Below, one piece after another: positions 24,120-48,487 of a DNA stretch of 64,000 nt. Where the stretch lies: contig NZ_BRPL01000004.1 of NCBI RefSeq assembly GCF_027923585.1, positions 1-64,000 of the forward strand, in the 5' to 3' direction. The position numbers and the translations under genes are program-made. Position 1 is the stretch's first letter, and each line of letters opens with the position of its first letter. Source of the stretch: Philodulcilactobacillus myokonensis. GTDB taxonomy: Bacteria; Bacillota; Bacilli; Lactobacillales; Lactobacillaceae. The notes under the pieces were generated by a model. That model was not told the origin of the DNA. It saw only the letters and a list, made by a program, of their open reading frames with translations, and did not search any database.

Positions 24120-25145
24120 CTAAGGTAAAGTCGGTGTGAGTTTTAATCCGTCAGTAATTGAAAAATGAAATAGTTGATTTAAATTCTGAATTGCTTGTCC
24201 TGCGGCACCTTTAATCATGTTATCGATGACACTGTCAACGAGTAGATAGTTAGTCTTTGGATTATAAGAAAATCCAAGGTGACATTCATTTGTGCCGACG
24301 ACTTCTTTCACGGTCGGCAGATTGGGCGTGGTAAAAACAAACGGGCTGTTTTGATAACACGTCTTGAATGCATCTTGGATGTTTTGAAATCTAATTTTAG
24401 GTTTAATTTGAACATAAATGGAACTCATGATGCCCCTGTTCATCGGGACCACGGTGGTCATGAATTGAATGTAGTCTACATTTTGATTCCATTCTTTTAA
24501 TTTTTGCATGATTTCCGGGATGTGTTTATGTTGGTTGGGTTTATAGATCTGTAAATTATCATGAGCGTTCACAAAGTGATTCATGGTTGTCAGCTTTTTG
24601 CCGGCACCGGAAAATCCGGATTTAGCATCAATTAAAATACTATCCGGTTGAATTAAATCATTCTGAACTAATGGTGCCAGGCCAAGTAAAATCGAAGTAG
24701 CGTAGCAGCCAGGGTTAGCAACATATTTTTGATCATCATTATTTTGTAAATCAGCTAAGCCATAGTAGGCGGATTTTAATTCATCTTCATTAGCAGCCGG
24801 TTTTTGATACCATTTTTCATATTGTTTGGGATCATTTAACCGAAAATCACCCGAGAGGTCGATCACTGGAAATAATTGCTTCAAAAACGGTTGGGCTAAT
24901 TTTGATGTTACCCCCGCTGGAGTAGCAAAGAAAACCACGTCGTTATTTTCCATAATCTGTTGAGCATCATATGGATAAACAATTTGCTCCCCAAACGAAA
25001 ATTGGCCCGTAATCTTTCCCAGTGGAGTTGACTGAGTGAGATTATGGGCATACAAGTTGATCTGGCTAATTTGAGGGTGATTAGTCAGTAATTCATATAA
25101 TACAGTTCCTGCGTATCCTGTGATTCCAATAATTGCGACTTCCAT
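24120..25145 (-). CDS. argC: N-acetyl-gamma-glutamyl-phosphate reductase
   Basis: 341 aa from the ATG at 25145. This start places MEVAIIGITGYAGTVLYELL, the NADP-binding motif, at the very N-terminus; an in-frame ATG at 25166 would add seven residues and destroy the spacing to AAAGGAA. The catalytic cysteine lies in VANPGCYATSILLGL and a conserved His in the KHIPEIMQ region. It reduces acetylglutamyl phosphate to the semialdehyde. First gene of argCJBD. Its ribosome binding site lies inside an upstream arginine-rich leader ORF that overlaps the gene start. Confidence 0.93.
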   Translation of the reverse strand: MEVAIIGITGYAGTVLYELLTNHPQISQINLYAHNLTQSTPLGKITGQFSFGEQIVYPYDAQQIMENNDVVFFATPAGVTSKLAQPFLKQLFPVIDLSGDFRLNDPKQYEKWYQKPAANEDELKSAYYGLADLQNNDDQKYVANPGCYATSILLGLAPLVQNDLIQPDSILIDAKSGFSGAGKKLTTMNHFVNAHDNLQIYKPNQHKHIPEIMQKLKEWNQNVDYIQFMTTVVPMNRGIMSSIYVQIKPKIRFQNIQDAFKTCYQNSPFVFTTPNLPTVKEVVGTNECHLGFSYNPKTNYLLVDSVIDNMIKGAAGQAIQNLNQLFHFSITDGLKLTPTLP

Positions 25146-25237
25146 AATGCCGATATTCCTTTCCATTTGTTGATCATCGATTTAAGAATTTGAATGTTAG
25201 CGTTAAGACGTCGTCGCCTGATATTGAATTTAAGCAT
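25085..25237 (-). CDS. Arginine-rich leader peptide overlapping argC (candidate attenuator)
   Basis: A 50-codon ORF starts at the ATG at 25237 with AAAGGA 8 bp upstream. Codons 7-10 are AGG CGA CGA CGT, four arginines in a row, followed by CTT. It reads through the argC ribosome binding site and ends 61 nt inside argC in another frame. A ribosome that finishes the ORF would run over the argC initiation region; one that stalls at the arginine codons would not. The carA leader has the same RRRRL block. Function is inference; the ORF and codons are seen directly. Confidence 0.65.
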   Translation of the reverse strand: MLKFNIRRRRLNANIQILKSMINKWKGISALWKSQLLESQDTQELYYMNY

Positions 25238-25298
25238 TGTAATCATCCTTTTTTAAATTAAATTTAACATTTTTGAATTGAGAAATGTTATTGGCTAA

Positions 25299-25326
25299 AA
25301 TATATCACAATTATGTGAAAATGCAA
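25299..25326 (-). promoter_or_regulatory. argC: argC promoter with internal inverted repeat
   Basis: On the minus strand TTGCAT, a 16-bp spacer and TATATT. The spacer holds TCACATAATTGTGA, an inverted repeat that could bind a repressor. The right flank AAAATGCAAAT (plus strand) resembles half of an ArgR box, but a full TGAAT-N4-ATTCA operator is not visible. Confidence 0.5.
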
Positions 25327-25434
25327 ATCCTTTTTTAATTTTAATTTAATTTAAAATTAGGATTGATTTAATAATGGGCTTGTGGTAAATTAATAACAAC
25401 TGAAAAAATTTATGGACAGAAAGAAGTGAAACTG

Positions 25435-25542
25435 ATGACAACCTTAAACAACATTAAAAATTACAACCAAGTTGCATTGAGGAGACGACGTCTGGTGCCG
25501 TCCCCAATTTTTATGTTGGATAATTTTCTTTATTCACTATAA
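25435..25542 (+). CDS. Arginine leader peptide of carAB (candidate attenuator)
   Basis: A 35-codon ORF from the ATG at 25435. Codons 16-19 are AGG AGA CGA CGT (RRRR) followed by Leu, the same block as in the argC leader. It ends at TAA 25542, 292 bp before carA. The ribosome binding site is weak (GAAAGAAGTG). The following RNA folds into nested hairpins and ends in a terminator 47 bp before carA, the layout of leader-peptide transcription attenuation for a gene whose product feeds arginine synthesis. Confidence 0.7.
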   Translation: MTTLNNIKNYNQVALRRRRLVPSPIFMLDNFLYSL

Positions 25543-25582
25543 TTTATGAATTGTCATCATAATTTCGTTGGTGGCGGCCGAA

Positions 25583-25787
25583 TTCCAGTTTAAATCGTGA
25601 TATTAAGATATCTTGATTGGATTAGTGGTTCGTCATTAACGAAGATTTCACTGAAAACAAAATCAGATATCTTAAGTGCGGCTTCAAACTGGAAGATAAA
25701 TTAATTATTTGATCGACTGGTTTAAGAAGATGGATTGAAGATATCTCAAACTAAAAGGTCGATCATTAACTTGATCGATCTTTTTTA
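25583..25787 (+). terminator. Structured attenuator before carA
   Basis: Nested stems are TTCCAGTTT (25583-25591) with AAACTGGAA (25686-25694) and, inside, TTAAGATATCT (25603-25613) with AGATATCTTAA (25665-25675), capped by TTCGT/ACGAA. A terminator stem GGTCGATCA / TTGATCGATC is at 25757-25780 with a T6 tail. TGATCGAC (25710-25717) can pair with GTCGATCA (25758-25765), the 5' arm of the terminator, giving an antiterminator. All pairings are seen in sequence; energies were not computed. Confidence 0.75.
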
Positions 25788-25834
25788 TATATTCAATATC
25801 TTCATCACGGATTAACATGAAAGGAAATTTGATG

Positions 25835-26905
25835 ATGGAACGTTATTTAGTTTTAAAAAATGGTTCAGTCTATAAGGGCCATGCCTTTGGTTCTAAGAAG
25901 GCGGTCAACGGTGAAGTTGTGTTTAGTACCGGGATGACTGGCTACCAAGAAACCATTACAGATCCTAGTTACTATGGGCAAATCATGGTATTTACGAACC
26001 CACTAATTGGTAACTATGGAATTACTACCGGTGATGATGAAAGCTTACATCCCCAAGTTAAAGCCATCATTGCCCACGAAATTGCTAAATATCCCAGTAA
26101 TTATCGCTGTAAAATGACGCTAACTCGGTATGCGGAGAAACAAGATTTACCTGGTATCTCAGGAATTGATACTAGACGGTTAACCAAAGAAATTCGTGAC
26201 CAGGGATCCATGCCAGGTGTAATAACAGATGATCTGAACCATGAAAATGTTAATCAGCTGTTTGATCAAAAGACACCTAATAAATTATCTGATATGACGA
26301 CGATTGAGAATTCATATCCAGCACCTAATGACGGACCTAAAATTGCCATCATCGATTACGGAATTAAGAATTCAATCATGAAACAACTATCGAAGCGCCA
26401 CGCCAACATGGTGGTTTTCCAAAGCAACGTCAGTGCTAAAACTGTTTTGGATAGTTATCCTGATGCAGTTATGCTTTCAAATGGCCCTGGCGATCCTGAA
26501 AAAATGAGTGATGTTCTACCAACAATTCAAACGTTGGAACATCAATTGCCACTGATGGGAATTTGCTTTGGTAATCAGCTCCTGGCATTAGCCAACGGTG
26601 CTAAAACCTATAAGATGAAATTTGGCCACCGTGGTTTTAACCACGCCGTTAAAGATTTAACGACTGGTAAATGCTATTTTACATCCCAAAACCACGGTTA
26701 TGCGGTTGATCGGAATTCTTTAAAGGGGACCAACCTTGAAACCTGGTTTGAAGAAATTAACGATCATACCGTAGAAGGCATCAAAGTGAAGGACTGTAAC
26801 GCCTTTTCGGTTCAATTTCATCCGGATGCTTCACCAGGTCCGCATGATGCCCTTTACGTTTTCGATCAATTCTTTGAAATGATTAAGCAGAGTCAAAAGA
26901 AATAG
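25835..26905 (+). CDS. carA: Carbamoyl-phosphate synthase small (glutaminase) subunit
   Basis: 356 aa. ATG 25835 was chosen over 25817 and 25832 because AAAGGAA is 9 bp upstream. The N-terminal domain is typical ([22 protein letters not shown]). The class I amidotransferase domain has the nucleophile in [10 protein letters not shown] and the catalytic His in [14 protein letters not shown]. The usual GHQ is GNQ here and HPE is HPD; both are conservative changes around the glutaminase site. It supplies ammonia to CarB. Its RRRR leader suggests an arginine-pathway enzyme and not the pyrimidine-operon copy. Confidence 0.93.
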
Positions 26906-26916
26906 GAGGATTTTTG

Positions 26917-29900
26917 ATGCCAAAGAGAATGGATATTCATAAAATTTTAGTGATTGGTTCTGGCCCCATCGTAATCGGGCAAGCAGCAGAATTTGATTAT
27001 TCCGGTTCGCAGGCCTGTCTTTCACTGCGTGAGGAAGGTTACCAAGTAGTTTTGATTAACTCCAATCCCGCTACCATCATGACCGATAAGGAAATTGCCA
27101 ATCAAGTTTACATCGAACCAATTACCTTAGAATTCGTTTCAAAGATTATTCGAAAGGAAATTCCAGATGCCATTTTACCAACGTTGGGTGGTCAAACGGG
27201 TTTGAACATGGCTAAACAACTTGCTGACTCGGGAATTCTTGATGAATTAGGAATCGAATTACTGGGAACTAAACTAGATGCAATTGAAGAAGCGGAAGAC
27301 CGTGAAAAATTCAAGGATCTAATGAAACAGCTACATGAACCGGTACCGGAATCACAAATTGCCACGAATTATGATGAAGCGAAAGCGTTTGTTGAAAAAA
27401 TTGGCTTTCCAGTTGTCATTAGACCAGCTTATACCCTTGGTGGTAGCGGCGGAGGCTTCGTTGATAACTACCATGATTTAAAGAAAATTGTGACCCTCGG
27501 TTTAGGGTTATCACCAGTGACTCAAGTTTTAGTCGAACATTCGATTGCTGGCTATAAAGAAATTGAATTTGAAGTCATGCGGGATGCCAATGACAATGCG
27601 ATGATTGTTTGTTCAATGGAAAATGTTGATCCGGTTGGCATTCATACTGGTGATTCAATCGTAGTGTCACCAACCCAGACTTTGTCGGATCAGGATTATC
27701 AAATGATGCGGGATGCCGCTTTAAAGATTATCCGTGCCTTAAAAATTGAAGGTGGCTGTAACGTCCAAATGGCAATTGATCAATATAGTGGTCAATATTA
27801 CATTATTGAAGTTAATCCGCGGGTATCGCGTTCGTCAGCTTTGGCATCGAAAGCCACTGGATATCCGATTGCTAAAATGTCGGCTAAAATTGCGGTCGGT
27901 TTGCATTTAGATGAAATTATTAATCCAATTACCGGCAAGACTTTAGCTGAATTTGAACCCGCATTGGATTACGTGGTCACAAAAATTCCAAGATGGCCGT
28001 TTGATAAATTCACAACGGCTGATCGAACGTTAGGGACGCAAATGAAAGCTACCGGCGAAGTCATGGCAATTGGACGAAATTTTGAAGAATCATTTTTAAA
28101 AGCAGTACGTTCATTAGAAGTTGATACTAAATATGTTTTTAAACCACAGTTTCAAAAGTTATCAACTGATGAACTATTGAAACAATTAATGCCGGCTCAG
28201 AATGATCGGTTATTTGTTATCTTAGAATTATTAAGACGTCACGTTTCAGTTAATCAAATTCATGACATTACCCAAATGAATCAATTTTACTTATATAAGT
28301 TTCAACACATCATTGAAATTGAGGAACAATTAAAGCAAAATCACGGTGCCAAAGCTTTGAAAATTGCAAAACAAAATGGTTTTATTGATGACGTGATTGG
28401 AAAATTATGGCGAAAAACACCGGATCAAATTAGACAAATCAGAACTAAGCAGCATATTACACCAGTATATAAAATGGTTGATACCGCTGCCGGTGAGTTT
28501 GAATCAACAACCCCTTACTATTACAGTACCTATGAAGAATCTGATGAGTCCAAAGTCACTAAGAAACCTTCAATTGTGATTGTTGGTTCCGGTCCGATCA
28601 GAATTGGACAGGGAGTTGAATTTGATTATGCCACTGTTCACTGTGTCGATGCTGTCCAAAAAGCTGGCTATGAAGCAATTATCATTAATTCTAATCCCGA
28701 AACAGTTTCAACCGATTTTTCAATTTCTGATAAACTCTACTTTGAACCGTTAACGACCGAAGATGTTTTGAACGTCATTGATCATGAACAGCCTAAGGGG
28801 GTCATTCTCCAATTCGGTGGGCAGACCGCCGTTAATTTAGCCGAACCACTATCTAAACGGGGCGTGAAAGTAATTGGAACCTCCGTCGAAGATATTAACC
28901 GTGGTGAAGACCGGAAACTATTTGATCAAATTGTTAAGAAGTTATCCCTGCAGCAACCAAAAGGAAAGACGGCCACGAATACTAAGAATGCTTTAACGAT
29001 TGCAAATCAAATTGGCTATCCAGTTCTCATCCGACCATCATATGTAATTGGCGGGAAGGCAATGGAAATTGTTCATTCTGATGATGAACTGCAAAATTAC
29101 ATGCAAAAAGCTGTGAATGCATCTAATGACCATCCCGTCTTGATTGATTCGTACTTAATGGGGATGGAATCAGAAGTCGATGTCATTTCAGATGGGCATA
29201 GCGTTGTAATTCCAGGAATTTTAGAACACATTGAACGTTCTGGTGTTCATTCTGGTGATTCAATGGCCGTTTATCCGCCACAGCATATGAAGGAAAGCAT
29301 TCAACAAAAGATTGTGAAAATTTCAATTGAATTAGCTCATCAATTGCATACAATTGGTTTAATGAACATTCAATTTATTGTTTATCATGACCAAGTTTAC
29401 ATTATTGAAGTAAACCCCAGAGCTTCCAGAACGGTTCCATTTATTTCTAAGGTAACCGGGGTTCCAATGGTCCAACTTGCTACGCATGCCATGTTAGGAA
29501 AACCATTGGAAAAAATGGGATACCATACTGGTTTAGTCACACCAGCTAAAAAGATTGCGGTGAAATCACCCGTCTTTAGTTTCTCAAAACTACCATTAGT
29601 TAATGCCACTTTAGGACCCGAAATGAAATCAACCGGCGAAGTTTTAGGAACAGACAATAGTTATGATAAGGCTCTATATAAGGCCTTTGTTGCTGCTGGG
29701 TTTAACGTTCCAAAGGAAGGCAGCATTTTCTTCAAAGTTAAACCATCCGATTTAGATGAATCACTTAAATTAGCTCGTGAATTTAAATCAATTGGCTTTC
29801 AAATTCAAGCGGATCAATCAACTGCTGACTTTATGAAACAGCAGGGGTTACAAGTAGCGGTTAAAGATCCTGTTAATGAAATCAAACATGATGAACTTCA

Positions 29901-30069
29901 AGTCGTCGTCAATACCACTGATGAATACGATTTACACACCCAAAAGGGACAGACCACATTGAATGATGTCGCATTGGAACATCAAATTCCGTTGTTTACT
30001 GCTATTGATACGGTTAAAGCATATGAAACGGCAATTGCCGGATTATCTTTTAGTATTGATCCGATGTAG
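26917..30069 (+). CDS. carB: Carbamoyl-phosphate synthase large subunit
   Basis: 1050 aa, two homologous ATP-grasp halves (each begins [19 protein letters not shown] or [18 protein letters not shown]), with glycine-rich loops TLGGSGGGF and VIGGKAME and metal-binding VNPRVSRSS and VNPRASRT. The C-terminal regulatory MGS-like domain (from about residue 930) is present. It makes carbamoyl phosphate from bicarbonate, ammonia and two ATP. The ATG at 26917 follows AGGAGG, 11 bp after carA. The pair is transcribed divergently from argCJBD. Confidence 0.95.
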
Positions 30070-30551: not shown

Positions 30552-31193
30552 ATGGAAGTGATTAGTTTGCAACAACATTATACAACCGGACAGTTTGCTA
30601 AAAAAATTGGTGTAGTTAATAAAACCTTAATAAATTGGGACAAAAAGGGAACATTAACTGCTTATCGGACGCCAACTAATCGGCGTTATTATACCCAAAA
30701 CCAGCTAGACCAAGTTTTAGGGATTAAAAATAAGCAGGAATCGAGAATTAACGTAGCTTATGCTCGTGTATCCAGTCGGAATCAAAAAGATGATTTAAAA
30801 AATCAAATTGCATTTATTCAGACTTTTGTTAATGCCAAAGGCATTATCTTAGATAAAACTATGACTGATATTGGGAGTGGACTTAACTATAATCGTAAAA
30901 ACTGGAATAAACTATTAAAATTAGTGTTAGAATCGAAAGTTAAAACGATTTACATTACCTATCAAGACCGCTTTATCCGCTTTGGATATCATTGGTTTGA
31001 GCATTTGCTCAACCAATTTGGAACTAAATTGGTAGTTTTGAACGATAAGAATAGTTCACCCAATGAAGAATTTGTGCAAGATATTATCAGCATTATTCAT
31101 GTTTTTAGTTGTCGTTTATATGGACTTCGTAAATATAAGGGTCAAATTAAAAATGATAAGACCATCCAGAAAGAAGAACATGATGATGCATAG
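30552..31193 (+). CDS. tnpA: IS607-type serine recombinase TnpA
   Basis: 213 aa. N-terminal MerR-like HTH (TTGQFAKKIGVVNKTLINWD, then LTAYRTPTNRRYYTQ) followed by a serine resolvase catalytic domain from about residue 65: INVAYARVSSRNQKDDLKNQ, with the nucleophilic serine in VSS, and TIYITYQDRFIRFGYHWFE. It catalyses single-strand-free transposition through a circular intermediate. The domain order DNA-binding first, catalytic second is diagnostic of IS607. It overlaps tnpB by 14 bp from the chosen tnpB start. It looks intact. Confidence 0.93.
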   Translation: MEVISLQQHYTTGQFAKKIGVVNKTLINWDKKGTLTAYRTPTNRRYYTQNQLDQVLGIKNKQESRINVAYARVSSRNQKDDLKNQIAFIQTFVNAKGIILDKTMTDIGSGLNYNRKNWNKLLKLVLESKVKTIYITYQDRFIRFGYHWFEHLLNQFGTKLVVLNDKNSSPNEEFVQDIISIIHVFSCRLYGLRKYKGQIKNDKTIQKEEHDDA

Positions 31194-32352
31194 CTGTAGT
31201 ATTAAAGTCAAGCTATATCCCAATCAACATATGAAGCGTTATCTCGATTTGATGTGTAATTATCGTCGCTATTGTTGGAATCAAGGTTTAGAAACCTGGA
31301 ACCATATGTATGATTGCAATTCAATTGATAAAGGACATAATTCTAAGCCCAATGAGCGTGAAATAAGGAATGAATTAGTTTTTAATAAATTTGATTGGCA
31401 ATATCAATATTCAGCTAGGATTTTGCAATTAGCGATTAAAGATTTAGGCCATGCTTTTAAAGCTTTTTTCGATAAAAAACAGCCTGATTTTAAACATCCA
31501 CGTTTTAAATCAAAGAAATGGCTGAAACAAGGTTTTAAAACTGATCGAGCTAAAATAATTGATGGTAAATTAAGATTAGACCGTGCTAGTGGGTATCCTA
31601 AAAATTTGTTTTACGATATTCGATTGAGTGGACTACGTCCACAACCAGGCCAATTGAAAATGGTTGCGATTACAATGCAGAATCATCAATACACAGCTAA
31701 TCTGCAATTTACTAATCTCCCGGATAATACCACTATTTATACCAATCAAAAAACGGCTGTGGATGTTAATGTAGGTCATTTTAACTATACTAATGGAGAT
31801 ATCAAAACCTATGGTCATAAATTAAAACGTTTATACGAACAAAATAAATACTATCAGCGTCTACTAGCTCGAAAACGGACAATTCATCCTAAAACTTTTC
31901 GGAAATCTAATAATTACATGCAAGTGAGAACCAAACTACAGCGTAATTATACAAGAATTAAAAATTTTCAGGATGATATTCTGCATAAGTTTACAAATAA
32001 ATTAGTACAAAATTATGACCAAATTGTAATCGAAAATTTAGACGTCAAACATATGTTCATGAGCCACGTAGCTTCGAAAGGAATGCAGCGAAGTATGTTT
32101 GGTAAATTTAGACAGTATTTAACATATAAATGCCAATGGTACGGAAAACAATTGATTTTAGCTGATCAAAGTTATCCTTCAACACAACGTTGTTCTAAAT
32201 GTGGCTATATAAAAAAAGGTACTGATAAGATTACCCTTAAGGGTAATCAAAAACATCATACTAATCATCACCAATTTATTTGTTATCATTGTGGTTTTAA
32301 AGCCGACCGTGATGATAATGCTGTCCAGAATTTATTAGCTTTAATTCAATAA
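31180..32352 (+). CDS. tnpB: TnpB RNA-guided nuclease
   Basis: 390 aa from the cluster of ATGs at 31180; starts at 31153 or 31063 only add residues from the tnpA overlap. The RuvC-like active site is complete: Asp in TAVDVNVGHFNY, Glu in IVIENLDVKHMF and Asp in KADRDDNAVQN. The zinc ribbon is CSKCGYIKKG ... FICYHCGF. TnpB proteins cut DNA guided by an omegaRNA from the element's right end and help keep the element at its site. Likely active. Confidence 0.93.
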   Translation: MMMHSCSIKVKLYPNQHMKRYLDLMCNYRRYCWNQGLETWNHMYDCNSIDKGHNSKPNEREIRNELVFNKFDWQYQYSARILQLAIKDLGHAFKAFFDKKQPDFKHPRFKSKKWLKQGFKTDRAKIIDGKLRLDRASGYPKNLFYDIRLSGLRPQPGQLKMVAITMQNHQYTANLQFTNLPDNTTIYTNQKTAVDVNVGHFNYTNGDIKTYGHKLKRLYEQNKYYQRLLARKRTIHPKTFRKSNNYMQVRTKLQRNYTRIKNFQDDILHKFTNKLVQNYDQIVIENLDVKHMFMSHVASKGMQRSMFGKFRQYLTYKCQWYGKQLILADQSYPSTQRCSKCGYIKKGTDKITLKGNQKHHTNHHQFICYHCGFKADRDDNAVQNLLALIQ

Positions 32353-32467
32353 AAACATGATTAGGGTAGGCTATACCCTACAAGCTCTGAGAGTTAGTCT
32401 CTGTGATTACTTCCTTTTAGGAAATATCGGAATACTAATGTAGACGAGAGTAAATAAAATATAGAAA
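32353..32467 (+). ncRNA. Candidate omegaRNA / right end of the IS607 element
   Basis: Directly after the tnpB stop the sequence forms a stem GGGTAGGC-TATACCCTAC at about 32364-32381 and another around AGCTCTGAGAG / GTCTCTGTG. TnpB guide RNAs of known elements overlap the 3' end of tnpB and run to the right end. Boundaries and guide position are not determined. Confidence 0.4.
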
Positions 32468-45684: not shown

Positions 45685-45887
45685 ATTAATGTTTATTGTA
45701 ATTGTAAAAGGATTATAATGATGCTCTTAAGGTAATAACGTTGGTTAATCGCTTTGTTGCTTACCTTGGTATTAGGGACTAGATTTAACTAGACCTTTCT
45801 TTTTACCCCATTTTTTAAAATTATTTTAATAATTCCCTTGCATTTATTAGAATTTGATTGTATTATGCTTATAACATAATTAATTGC

Positions 45888-46168
45888 AACGAGCGGATAA
45901 GTAATGAAGAGGTTTTGATCTAAAGAGAGCTGTGCTGATGAAATGCAGTGTTTGAATGCTTCATGAAAATGGTCCGGGAGCAATGTTAGCTAATGAGATG
46001 AATTCAAGTTAGCTACGAACAACCTTCGTTATCAGGTTCAAGGATTCCTCGGAGTCCTTCGTAAGGGTAATTAGATTTAATTACCGAAATAGAGTGGCAC
46101 CGCGTTATACATAAACGCCTCTAAACTAATCATTAAGTTGATATAGTTTAGGGGCGTTTTTTATTACC
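45888..46168 (+). promoter_or_regulatory. Methionine T-box riboswitch
   Basis: Stem I is closed by ATGAAG / CTTCAT with AAGTA on the 5' side and GAAA on the 3' side, and the triplet right after GAAA is ATG (45969-45971), the Met specifier. AGAGAG occurs at 45919-45924. The T-box core AGAGTGGCACCGCG is at 46091-46104, followed by the terminator AAACGCC-TAAACTA / TAGTTTA-GGCGTTT with a T run. Uncharged tRNA-Met should open metE-metF. The variable base of UGGN is C here. The 520-bp gap 45685-46204 holds only this element and its promoter. Confidence 0.95.
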
Positions 46169-46204: not shown

Positions 46205-48487
46205 ATGAGTACAACGATTATTGGATTTCCCAGAATTGGTCATCATAGAGAATTAAAATTTGCAACAGAGCATTATTGGAAGCATGAAATTGACCAGAAG
46301 GCATTATTAAAAGTGGGCCGTCAATTGCGTAAAACACATTGGCTCGCTCAAAAGAAGGCTGGGATTGATTTAATTCCAGTTGGTGACTTTTCATTTTATG
46401 ATAACTTATTAGACGTTGCGAACGTTTTGAACATTGTTCCAAGCCGATACAAACAATTAAAGCTTTCAAAGCTAGATGAATACTTTGCCCAAGCTCAAGG
46501 TTATCAATCTAATCAAGGCAATGTCAGGGCATTACCATTAAAGAAGTGGTTCAACACCAACTACCATTACATTGTGCCGGAATTTAGCGATGAAACTAAT
46601 ATTAAGTTGGTTGGCGACAAATTATTTAATGAGGTTGATGAAGCCAAAGCACTAGGTATCAATCCGAAGGCGGTTATTATTGGCCCTTACACCATTTTGA
46701 AGTTAGGACGTTTCGTTGATGGCAAGCAGCCAGTTGATTTTGTTAAACCACTGATTGAAGCATATTCAAAAGTTTTAGACCGTTTGAATCAACAAAATGT
46801 TTCATGGCTTCAAATTGACGAACCGGCTTTATCATTCGATGTTGATTCAGAAGACCACCAACTCTTTGACAAATTATACGATGGAATTTTGCGACGAAAG
46901 GGCAACGTTAAAGTTGTTTTGCAAAATTACTTTGGTGACATTCGCGATGTTTATACCGACGTGATCAAGAAACCATTTGATGGAATTGGTTTGGACCTTG
47001 TTGAAGGTGATGAAAATATTCACTTGATCCAACAACATGGTTTTCCATCAGACAAGGTTCTCTTTGCTGGGGTTGTGAATGGCCGTAACGTTTGGCGAAA
47101 TAATTATGACCAAACAATTGAATTATTAAGGTCATTGAATGTTAAATCGCCAGTCGTTTTAAACACATCGACTTCACTTTTGTTTGTTCCATACACTGCT
47201 GAAGATGAAGACGAAGTGGCACCGGATGTTAGACAACATTTAGCATTTGCCATCCAAAAGTTGAATGAACTGCATGAATTAGACCATGTTTTACAAGATG
47301 ATGATGAAGGAAAACGAGCTTTAGCTGCCAATGAAAAATTGTTTCATGACGTTAAACATCCCTATCGTCCCGCTGTCCACCACCGAATCAATCAACTTCA
47401 ACCGCAGGATTACATTAGAAAACCGGAACGATCCGAACGTGAAAAAATTCAAAAGAAGACCTTTGACTTGCCAATCTTACCAACCACGACGATTGGTTCG
47501 TTCCCGCAAACCAAGGATGTTCGTGCTAACCGCCATAAGTTTAATCAAGGTAAGATTACAAAAGAAGAATACGACCAGTTTAACCGCAACAAGATCAAGC
47601 GGATCATCAAATGGCAAGAAGATGTTGGGTTAGATGTCCTAGTTCACGGTGAATATGAACGAAATGACATGGTTGAATACTTCGGTGATAACCTGGATGG
47701 CTTTGCATTTACCAAGAACGGTTGGGTTCAATCATACGGAACTAGAGGTGTTAAACCACCCATTATCTGGGGTGATGTTCAAAGGACCCATCCGATTACC
47801 GTTGCCAGTTCGGTCTATGCCAATAGTTTAACGGATCACTATGTTAAAGGGATGATTACTGGCCCCGTTACCATCTTCAATTGGTCGTTCTCGCGTGAAG
47901 ACATTCCGCAAAAGGAAGTTGTTACCCAAATTTCATTAGCATTGCGGGATGAAGTCCTTGATTTAGAAAAACATGGGATTAAAATTATTCAAATTGATGA
48001 ACCAGCATTACGTGAAGGATTACCCCTAAGAAAATCTGATTGGTACGTTAAGTATTTGAACTGGGCGGTTCCTGCATTCCGTTTGGTTCATAGTGGTGTG
48101 AAACCAACGACCCAGATTCATACCCACATGTGCTATAGCCGTTTTGGTGATATTTTGGATGCCATCGATGATTTGGATGCTGACGTCATTTCATTCGAAG
48201 CTTCCCGTGGTGACTTTACTTTAATTAATGAGTTAGCTGAAAATCATTTCCAGACAGAAATGGGTCCAGGAGTCTATGATATTCATTCACCACGGATTCC
48301 ATCTGAAGAAGAAGTTCAGGATTTGATTACTAAATTAGTTCATAAGTTGCCGGTTAAAAAACTATGGGTCAATCCAGATTGTGGATTAAAGACTAGAACT
48401 GAAAAACAGGCATTTGAAAGTTTAAAGAATATTGTTGAAGCAACCAAGCGGGTTCGGAAGGAGTTGTCTGAAAATGTGCATTCATGA
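46205..48487 (+). CDS. metE: Cobalamin-independent methionine synthase
   Basis: 760 aa, full length. N-terminal substrate-docking half begins TTIIGFPRIGHHRELKFA; the C-terminal catalytic half has LPTTTIGSFPQT, the zinc ligands in IHTHMCYSRF (His and Cys), the Glu in the DVISFEASRG block and the late Cys in WVNPDCGLKTR. It methylates homocysteine using methyl-tetrahydrofolate polyglutamate, which MetF supplies. AAAGGAG is 9 bp upstream of the ATG. Controlled by the Met T-box. Confidence 0.97.
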   Translation: MSTTIIGFPRIGHHRELKFATEHYWKHEIDQKALLKVGRQLRKTHWLAQKKAGIDLIPVGDFSFYDNLLDVANVLNIVPSRYKQLKLSKLDEYFAQAQGYQSNQGNVRALPLKKWFNTNYHYIVPEFSDETNIKLVGDKLFNEVDEAKALGINPKAVIIGPYTILKLGRFVDGKQPVDFVKPLIEAYSKVLDRLNQQNVSWLQIDEPALSFDVDSEDHQLFDKLYDGILRRKGNVKVVLQNYFGDIRDVYTDVIKKPFDGIGLDLVEGDENIHLIQQHGFPSDKVLFAGVVNGRNVWRNNYDQTIELLRSLNVKSPVVLNTSTSLLFVPYTAEDEDEVAPDVRQHLAFAIQKLNELHELDHVLQDDDEGKRALAANEKLFHDVKHPYRPAVHHRINQLQPQDYIRKPERSEREKIQKKTFDLPILPTTTIGSFPQTKDVRANRHKFNQGKITKEEYDQFNRNKIKRIIKWQEDVGLDVLVHGEYERNDMVEYFGDNLDGFAFTKNGWVQSYGTRGVKPPIIWGDVQRTHPITVASSVYANSLTDHYVKGMITGPVTIFNWSFSREDIPQKEVVTQISLALRDEVLDLEKHGIKIIQIDEPALREGLPLRKSDWYVKYLNWAVPAFRLVHSGVKPTTQIHTHMCYSRFGDILDAIDDLDADVISFEASRGDFTLINELAENHFQTEMGPGVYDIHSPRIPSEEEVQDLITKLVHKLPVKKLWVNPDCGLKTRTEKQAFESLKNIVEATKRVRKELSENVHS

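Follow-up and report, generated by a model that had tools for sequence, protein, structure and literature searches.

An arginine-codon leader conserved ahead of carAB in Lactobacillaceae without a detectable ArgR, probably a transcription attenuator

Attenuation through a leader peptide is the textbook control of the trp, his, leu, thr and phe operons, but for arginine biosynthesis the regulator usually named is the repressor ArgR. Fungi have the arginine attenuator peptide (AAP), a uORF whose nascent chain arrests with arginine in eukaryotic translation. Bacterial ribosomes can also read arginine. In the Salmonella speF leader orf34, arginine is sensed at two consecutive Arg codons where ribosomes pause; the pausing refolds the leader and controls ornithine decarboxylase via Rho, folding of the ribosome-binding site and RNase G (PMC6386406). 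In Staphylococcus aureus, AGA/AGG codons in the tiny rbfL uORF sense arginine restriction; when ribosomes pause there, the downstream ribosome-binding site is blocked and a regulator gene is expressed less (PMC13009471). Histidine leader peptides stand in for T-boxes at hisS/hisZ in bacilli (Naville and Gautheret, PMC2965389), a carA leader peptide in Pseudomonas aeruginosa and pyrimidine control of carAB by attenuation are mentioned in PMC4997734, and leaders have been surveyed in Actinobacteria (PMC1262725). But is there an attenuator of arginine biosynthesis with an Arg-codon leader? None appears among the matches listed in the PMC literature, and the same holds for lactobacilli, for which the original prediction of the leader studied here likewise knew of no description.

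Such a leader lies ahead of carA in the window, the whole 64,000-nucleotide stretch of Philodulcilactobacillus myokonensis DNA analysed here (Table 1). According to the ORF list and the letters of the window, its 35 codons encode MTTLNNIKNYNQVALRRRRLVPSPIFMLDNFLYSL, and codons 16–19 are the run of four Arg codons, AGG AGA CGA CGT, that had been predicted. AGG makes up 0.34% of the codons in the window's genes; the sole rarer Arg codon is CGC, at 0.28%. When genes were called crudely as ORFs of at least 80 aa, leaving 14,217 intergenic bases, and the Arg run itself had to be intergenic, three ORFs of 8–80 aa with RRR were found: the car leader, a leader at argC and the antisense shadow of the latter. 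Between the car leader and carA lies an intrinsic terminator with a 13-bp stem (25753–25784, with the T run reaching 25786), and GATCGAC at 25711–25717 can pair with its 5′ arm at 25758–25764, forming a mutually exclusive antiterminator; here too the original prediction is borne out. None of 100 dinucleotide shuffles folds as well as the RNA of 25435–25834 (z −4.4). A promoter-like element 44–72 nt upstream of the leader start codon is absent from the hits of the promoter scanner; the alignment places TTGTTT-17-TAAATT at the equivalent position in four Apilactobacillus genomes. NCBIfam models confirm carA, carB, argC, argJ, argB and argD, the arg genes being divergent from carAB. The region 25100–25860 has no Rfam match, either at gathering scores or at E up to 1. 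This includes the T-box model RF00230, which does have two matches at argG in this genome, and the PyrR site model RF00515, which is found before another of its genes. Elsewhere in the window, an IS607-like element (resolvase, TnpB-like protein and Transposase-1 RNA RF03014) lies just 3′ of carB at 30552–32444, and a T-box at 45880–46125 precedes a metE-like gene (46205–48487) and then an MTHFR gene.

Table 1. Features of the carAB and argC upstream regions (window coordinates)
Feature	Position	Strand	Basis or remark
argC, heading the argCJBD operon (to 21023)	24120..25145	-	NCBIfam
argC leader ORF with Arg run, overlapping argC; start perhaps 25237	25085..25246	-	Apilactobacillus counterpart, same end point inside argC
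argC leader Arg codons AGG CGA CGA CGT	25208..25219	-	sequence
likely argC promoter TTTGCA-17-TATATT, extended -10	25299..25327	-	scanner; similar Apilactobacillus sequence
likely car leader promoter TTGATT-17-TAAATT, TG before -10	25363..25391	+	sequence; Apilactobacillus counterpart
car leader peptide ORF	25435..25542	+	homologous ORF in 4 Apilactobacillus genomes
putative regulatory Arg codons 16–19	25480..25491	+	AGG AGG ACA CGT in Apilactobacillus
segment A, GCCGTCCCC, leader codons 21–24	25497..25505	+	predicted to pair with B on a stall at Arg16/17; identical letters in Apilactobacillus
segment B, GGTGGCGGC	25570..25578	+	candidate partner of A or of C; terminator arm in Apilactobacillus (as GGGACGGCA)
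segment C, alternative partner of B	25628..25637	+	constrained folding
P hairpin, CCAGTTT 25585–25591 with AAACTGG 25686–25692	25585..25692	+	predicted to form with A:B and free the antiterminator strand
anti-antiterminator hairpin, predicted to sequester 25719–25726	25683..25726	+	Apilactobacillus equivalent, letters changed on both strands
antiterminator 5′ strand, GATCGAC and GGTTTAAG	25711..25726	+	folding, alignment
intrinsic terminator and T run before carA	25753..25786	+	terminator scan, alignment
carA, putative regulated gene; further in-frame ATG at 25817	25838..26905	+	ORF list, NCBIfam
carB, 3′ of carA	26914..30069	+	NCBIfam

How does this arrangement compare with the described systems? 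Like the trp, his and leu attenuators, the car leader joins an ORF with successive codons for the amino acid that the pathway makes to an antiterminator and a terminator that exclude each other before a biosynthetic operon. Unlike them, it would read arginine, both its sensing codons and the 5′ strand of its first switch helix are part of the ORF, the signal in the window would pass through intermediate helices, and ArgR is missing. Compared with orf34, the car leader has four Arg codons rather than the two described there (PMC6386406). It shares with the hisS/hisZ leaders that these are amino-acid leader peptides of Firmicutes, but those read histidine and precede hisS paralogues, not a biosynthetic operon (PMC2965389). 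With the fungal AAP it shares the enzyme subunit, without a sign of peptide-specific arrest. Three elements go beyond the original prediction: the argC leader, the intermediate segments of the switch and the absence of ArgR.

The Arg leader before carAB is real and conserved. A degenerate pattern derived from the peptide was searched in 397 genomes of the family and matched 17 places in 14 genomes. Five of these places lie before carA, in the window and in four Apilactobacillus genomes; the other 12 were counted as false. Eight of the 12, of FRSVRLIPSP type, are Apilactobacillus places whose open frame lies some 0.6 kb ahead of a dehydrogenase gene (which we take to be zwf); they look like the complement of another gene, and four further places in other genera are unrelated. 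The homologous leader precedes carA in four of 16 Apilactobacillus genomes, exactly the four with argC; neither argC nor the leader was found in the remaining 12. Among 29 carA loci of relatives (L004–L032), three hold the leader (L008, L011 and L014), and the long ORF upstream of carA at most of the others is presumably pyrC; at 80 named carA loci, none of the listed upstream ORFs resembles the car leader. The Apilactobacillus leaders read MNNK[TS]NNTLTEY[TN]ALRRTRIVPSPTFR.. and share the core ALRRTRIVPSP, with Arg at codons 16, 17 and 19 and Thr at codon 18. In both genera 14 codons separate the start codon from Leu-Arg-Arg without a gap and, although codons 2–13 have diverged, the frame stays open from the upstream ATG in all five genomes. 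The V-P-S-P codons are identical in all five, third positions included. The anti-antiterminator, antiterminator and terminator near carA can form in five of five genomes, with letters of the anti-antiterminator/antiterminator altered on both strands between the two genera. In an alignment of these five sequences, which represent two lineages, 94% of 65 cells are paired for the terminator and 100% of 35 for the antiterminator, against at most 57% for slid versions. Thus the expectation that the Arg run and stems would recur in close relatives is borne out in the four argC-bearing Apilactobacillus genomes, which keep three of the four Arg codons and both pairings. The compensatory stem changes also expected there amount to one two-sided change in the terminator and none in the antiterminator; covariation is not demonstrated by number, because 102 of 500 shuffles equal that one change. 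The ORF, the Arg run, the mutually exclusive pairings and their conservation can all be read from the letters.

What would the leader do? We consider it probable, on the strength of this anatomy and of folding models, that it is a ribosome-mediated transcription attenuator of the trp/his type reading the supply of charged tRNA-Arg. We infer that the leader is translated, that ribosomes stall within it and that the switch has the following sense. Transcription would begin near 25398 and the 35 codons would be translated. When arginine is short, the ribosome would stall at Arg16/17 and leave segment A free to pair with B; A:B would block B:C, the P hairpin would close and the antiterminator strand would be released to pair with the 5′ arm of the terminator, so that RNA polymerase reads into carAB. 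When arginine is ample, a ribosome at the stop codon would allow B:C, the antiterminator strand would be locked in its own hairpin and the terminator would form. In constrained folds of the full leader RNA of the window, the probability of A:B is 0.74 for a ribosome at Arg16, 0.14 for RNA without a ribosome and 0.02 when the ribosome has reached the stop codon. If the stall falls on codon 18 or 19 instead, A is masked (A:B 0) and the outcome would be the opposite. At a length of 320, counted like all lengths from the leader ATG, a ribosome at the stop gives B:C 0.98 with the antiterminator strand locked at 0.97, and the Arg16 stall gives A:B 0.98 with the P hairpin formed; in the stalled RNA the freed strand pairs with the first codons of the leader unless those are masked. 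At length 331 the antiterminator reaches 0.99 when the ribosome is stalled, yet also 0.92 with the ribosome at the stop, and the full-length RNA at equilibrium holds the terminator in every ribosome state, so folding order must decide. The difference in accessibility (0.22) was equalled by 19 of 300 shuffles of the RNA between the ORF and the antiterminator, and by seven of 300 with the upstream RNA masked. As a model, the relay in the window is no more than moderately beyond chance. The fold check proposed for the locus thus came out in the expected direction, the modelled ribosome at Arg16 freeing the antiterminator and that at the stop codon leaving it locked, a result equalled by 2–6% of shuffles. 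With the ORF, the Arg run and the exclusive pairings conserved and the window fold responding in the predicted sense, the trp/his-type logic proposed for arginine is supported at the level of the model, although the folds of two relatives do not follow it.

In Apilactobacillus, the leader segment may act more directly. Within V-P-S-P, TGCCGTCCC is complementary to the 5′ arm (GGGACGGCA) of an additional terminator-like hairpin directly 3′ of the leader ORF, so that B itself would be the 5′ arm of this post-ORF terminator. The predicted behaviour varies among the four relatives. In G140 and G238, A:B is near 0 at the Arg16 stall and 0.25 at the stop, the reverse of the model, and in the second switch the antiterminator strand is locked in most stalled states and less so at the stop. 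G163 shows the expected dependence in part (A:B 0.87 at Arg17, 0.35 at Arg16 and 0.25 at the stop), and in G186 A:B forms in every ribosome state except the Arg19 stall; the second switch is locked in all ribosome states of both genomes. Since the folds of the relatives disagree while the anatomy is conserved, folding alone is not proof of the sense of the switch. G140 (L129) also has a mini-ORF, MNNWILFA, which follows terminator 1, precedes the second switch and has its stop just before the anti-antiterminator; as a candidate in Apilactobacillus it was rejected, having no visible ribosome-binding site.

Could the same features arise in another way? The strongest alternative, though an unlikely one, is that a protein or metabolite acts on the conserved three-way switch beside carA and that the ORF is irrelevant there. 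In keeping with this explanation, G186 and G163 keep the anti-antiterminator locked wherever the ribosome stands, and G140 and G238 do so in most of their stalled states. But the region matches neither the T-box nor the PyrR model nor any other in Rfam, even with E up to 1, and the Arg run and the first Apilactobacillus terminator would be left unexplained. Far less probable is ordinary ArgR repression beside a meaningless ORF and a chance terminator, to which we give almost no credence. ArgR is the usual state of the family, carried by 64 of 86 argC genomes, but the leader and the stems are conserved, and neither ArgR domain (PF01316, PF02863) was found in the window genome, which is 99.7% complete, or in the four leader-bearing Apilactobacillus genomes; both were found in G032 and G066, searched alongside.

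Two further explanations concern the ORF itself. The nascent chain of the leader peptide might arrest the ribosome on free arginine in the manner of the AAP and so control carA, and conservation does reach past the Arg codons, in ALRRxR[LI]VPSP. The third positions of V-P-S-P are invariant, however, and since these codons are able to pair with B, an RNA stem would account for the conservation and no sign of nascent-peptide arrest is left; moreover, an arrest by arginine would have the wrong polarity for this terminator ahead of a biosynthetic operon, and the argC leader has an Arg run without the motif. We regard such arrest as very improbable. The fungal parallel drawn by the original prediction therefore holds for the enzyme and stops there, VPSP being kept nucleotide by nucleotide as an RNA stem. 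It would be equally surprising if the AGGAG(G) in the leader were a Shine–Dalgarno sequence for an internal GTG start (MPSP...) with the Arg run as its by-product. In its favour, AGGAGG precedes the GTG by 9 nt in Apilactobacillus, AGGAG precedes it by 10 nt in the window, and the same artefact accounts for the RRR before argC in g31. Against this stand the upstream ATG, at equal distance in five genomes and followed by an open frame despite the diverged codons, the CGA CGT of the window, which extend beyond any Shine–Dalgarno sequence, and the AGG CGA CGA CGT of the argC leader, which does not resemble one. Attenuation by arginine supply is the best account of the car leader.

The argC leader reads MITMLKFNIRRRRLN... 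and enters argC by 58 nt, out of frame; its Apilactobacillus counterparts read MTKQ[NS]LNQRRRSNVFSTG.... By itself the overlap is no evidence, since ORFs that straddle the argC start out of frame are also common in other genera. The Arg run lies about 60–75 nt upstream of the argC start, from which a sign opposite to that of rbfL would follow: the argC leader may be related in kind to this uORF (PMC13009471), with the predicted effect reversed. Our guess is that the leader, as a uORF, occludes argC.

How is arginine biosynthesis controlled when ArgR is lost? The original prediction placed the leader in a group governed by ArgR, which is true of most argC genomes of the family but not of this one, where no ArgR was found; the leader system would therefore replace ArgR and not add to it. 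PF01316 was not found in 12 of 16 genomes tested (the window genome, nine Apilactobacillus and two g7 genomes) and was found in the other four; PF02863 agrees with it in the nine genomes tested. After exclusion of 16 weak matches (E above 1e-6), 86 of the 90 family genomes matched by argC were kept, 64 with ArgR (14 genera) and 22 without it (7 genera). The 22 divide into Arg-codon leaders in three genera, T-boxes in three and nothing recognised in one. Arg-run leaders at both car and argC occur in the genus of the window and in Apilactobacillus, in five genomes. In g30, all four ArgR-less genomes (L194, L195, L201 and L202) have a conserved leader upstream of argC that ends N-I-[AV]-R-R-stop, the Arg-Arg-stop directly preceding a terminator-like hairpin. 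T-boxes at argC are found in eight genomes of g2, g7 and g39; one of the eight reaches the Rfam gathering score and the other seven have E below 1e-14, those of g2 lying about 1.2 kb upstream of argC, before the preceding gene. The five g4 genomes (L155, L156, L160, L162 and L164) have neither a T-box nor an Arg-run leader that was recognised. This T-box search covered 19 of the 22 loci, all but L130, L134 and L136. Of the 64 ArgR-bearing argC loci 40 were searched, and none of the 40 has an Rfam match at E 0.01 in stretches reaching about 1.1 kb upstream, so a T-box as distant as those of g2 could be missed. On a 30-row tree of argC proteins, three changes are needed to account for the ArgR-less rows, and the ArgR-bearing g33 adjoins the genus of the window with weak support (81/75); the association of leaders with ArgR loss was noticed after the fact. 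Several other candidates were set aside: three g31 genomes and one g6 genome have RRR ahead of argC, which is the Shine–Dalgarno sequence of argC read as codons, and TTG-started VRRIR ORFs in g21 are perhaps promoter sequence. In g7 (L139 and L140), a short ORF with KRRRGFP[AD]I lies between the T-box and argC.

T-boxes also appear at argG. In the window genome argG (L225, G000:C4:163609) lies behind two tandem T-box matches, one below the gathering score, and in Apilactobacillus G140 (L226) behind three. The argG specifiers, read by eye from the alignments, are CGU (Arg), as are those of one g39 and one g2 locus. The 234,944-bp contig C4 of the window genome carries the arg cluster together with argG and two carbamoyltransferase genes (ornithine/aspartate family). 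It is separate from contig C2, which measures 1.4 Mb, and is possibly a second replicon. Tandem PyrR-site matches of 60.5 and 39.8 bits, the latter below threshold, lie upstream of the second carbamoyltransferase gene (L233 1946–2175).

Did the lineages that lost ArgR rebuild their arginine regulon? We put at about even chances the broader proposal that ArgR-losing Lactobacillaceae rebuilt it on tRNA-Arg charging, with an Arg-codon attenuator at carAB, a uORF that overlaps argC and occludes it unless ribosomes stall upstream, two to three tandem Arg T-boxes at argG and, in ArgR-less g30, an Arg-codon leader of another make. If true, this would show a regulon moving from a DNA-binding protein to RNA control, through an Arg-codon attenuator and Arg T-boxes in ArgR-less genomes, and the ArgR-bearing, T-box-bearing and leader-bearing relatives would form a natural comparison set. 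The cell itself could gauge arginine by the speed of its ribosomes on the car leader.
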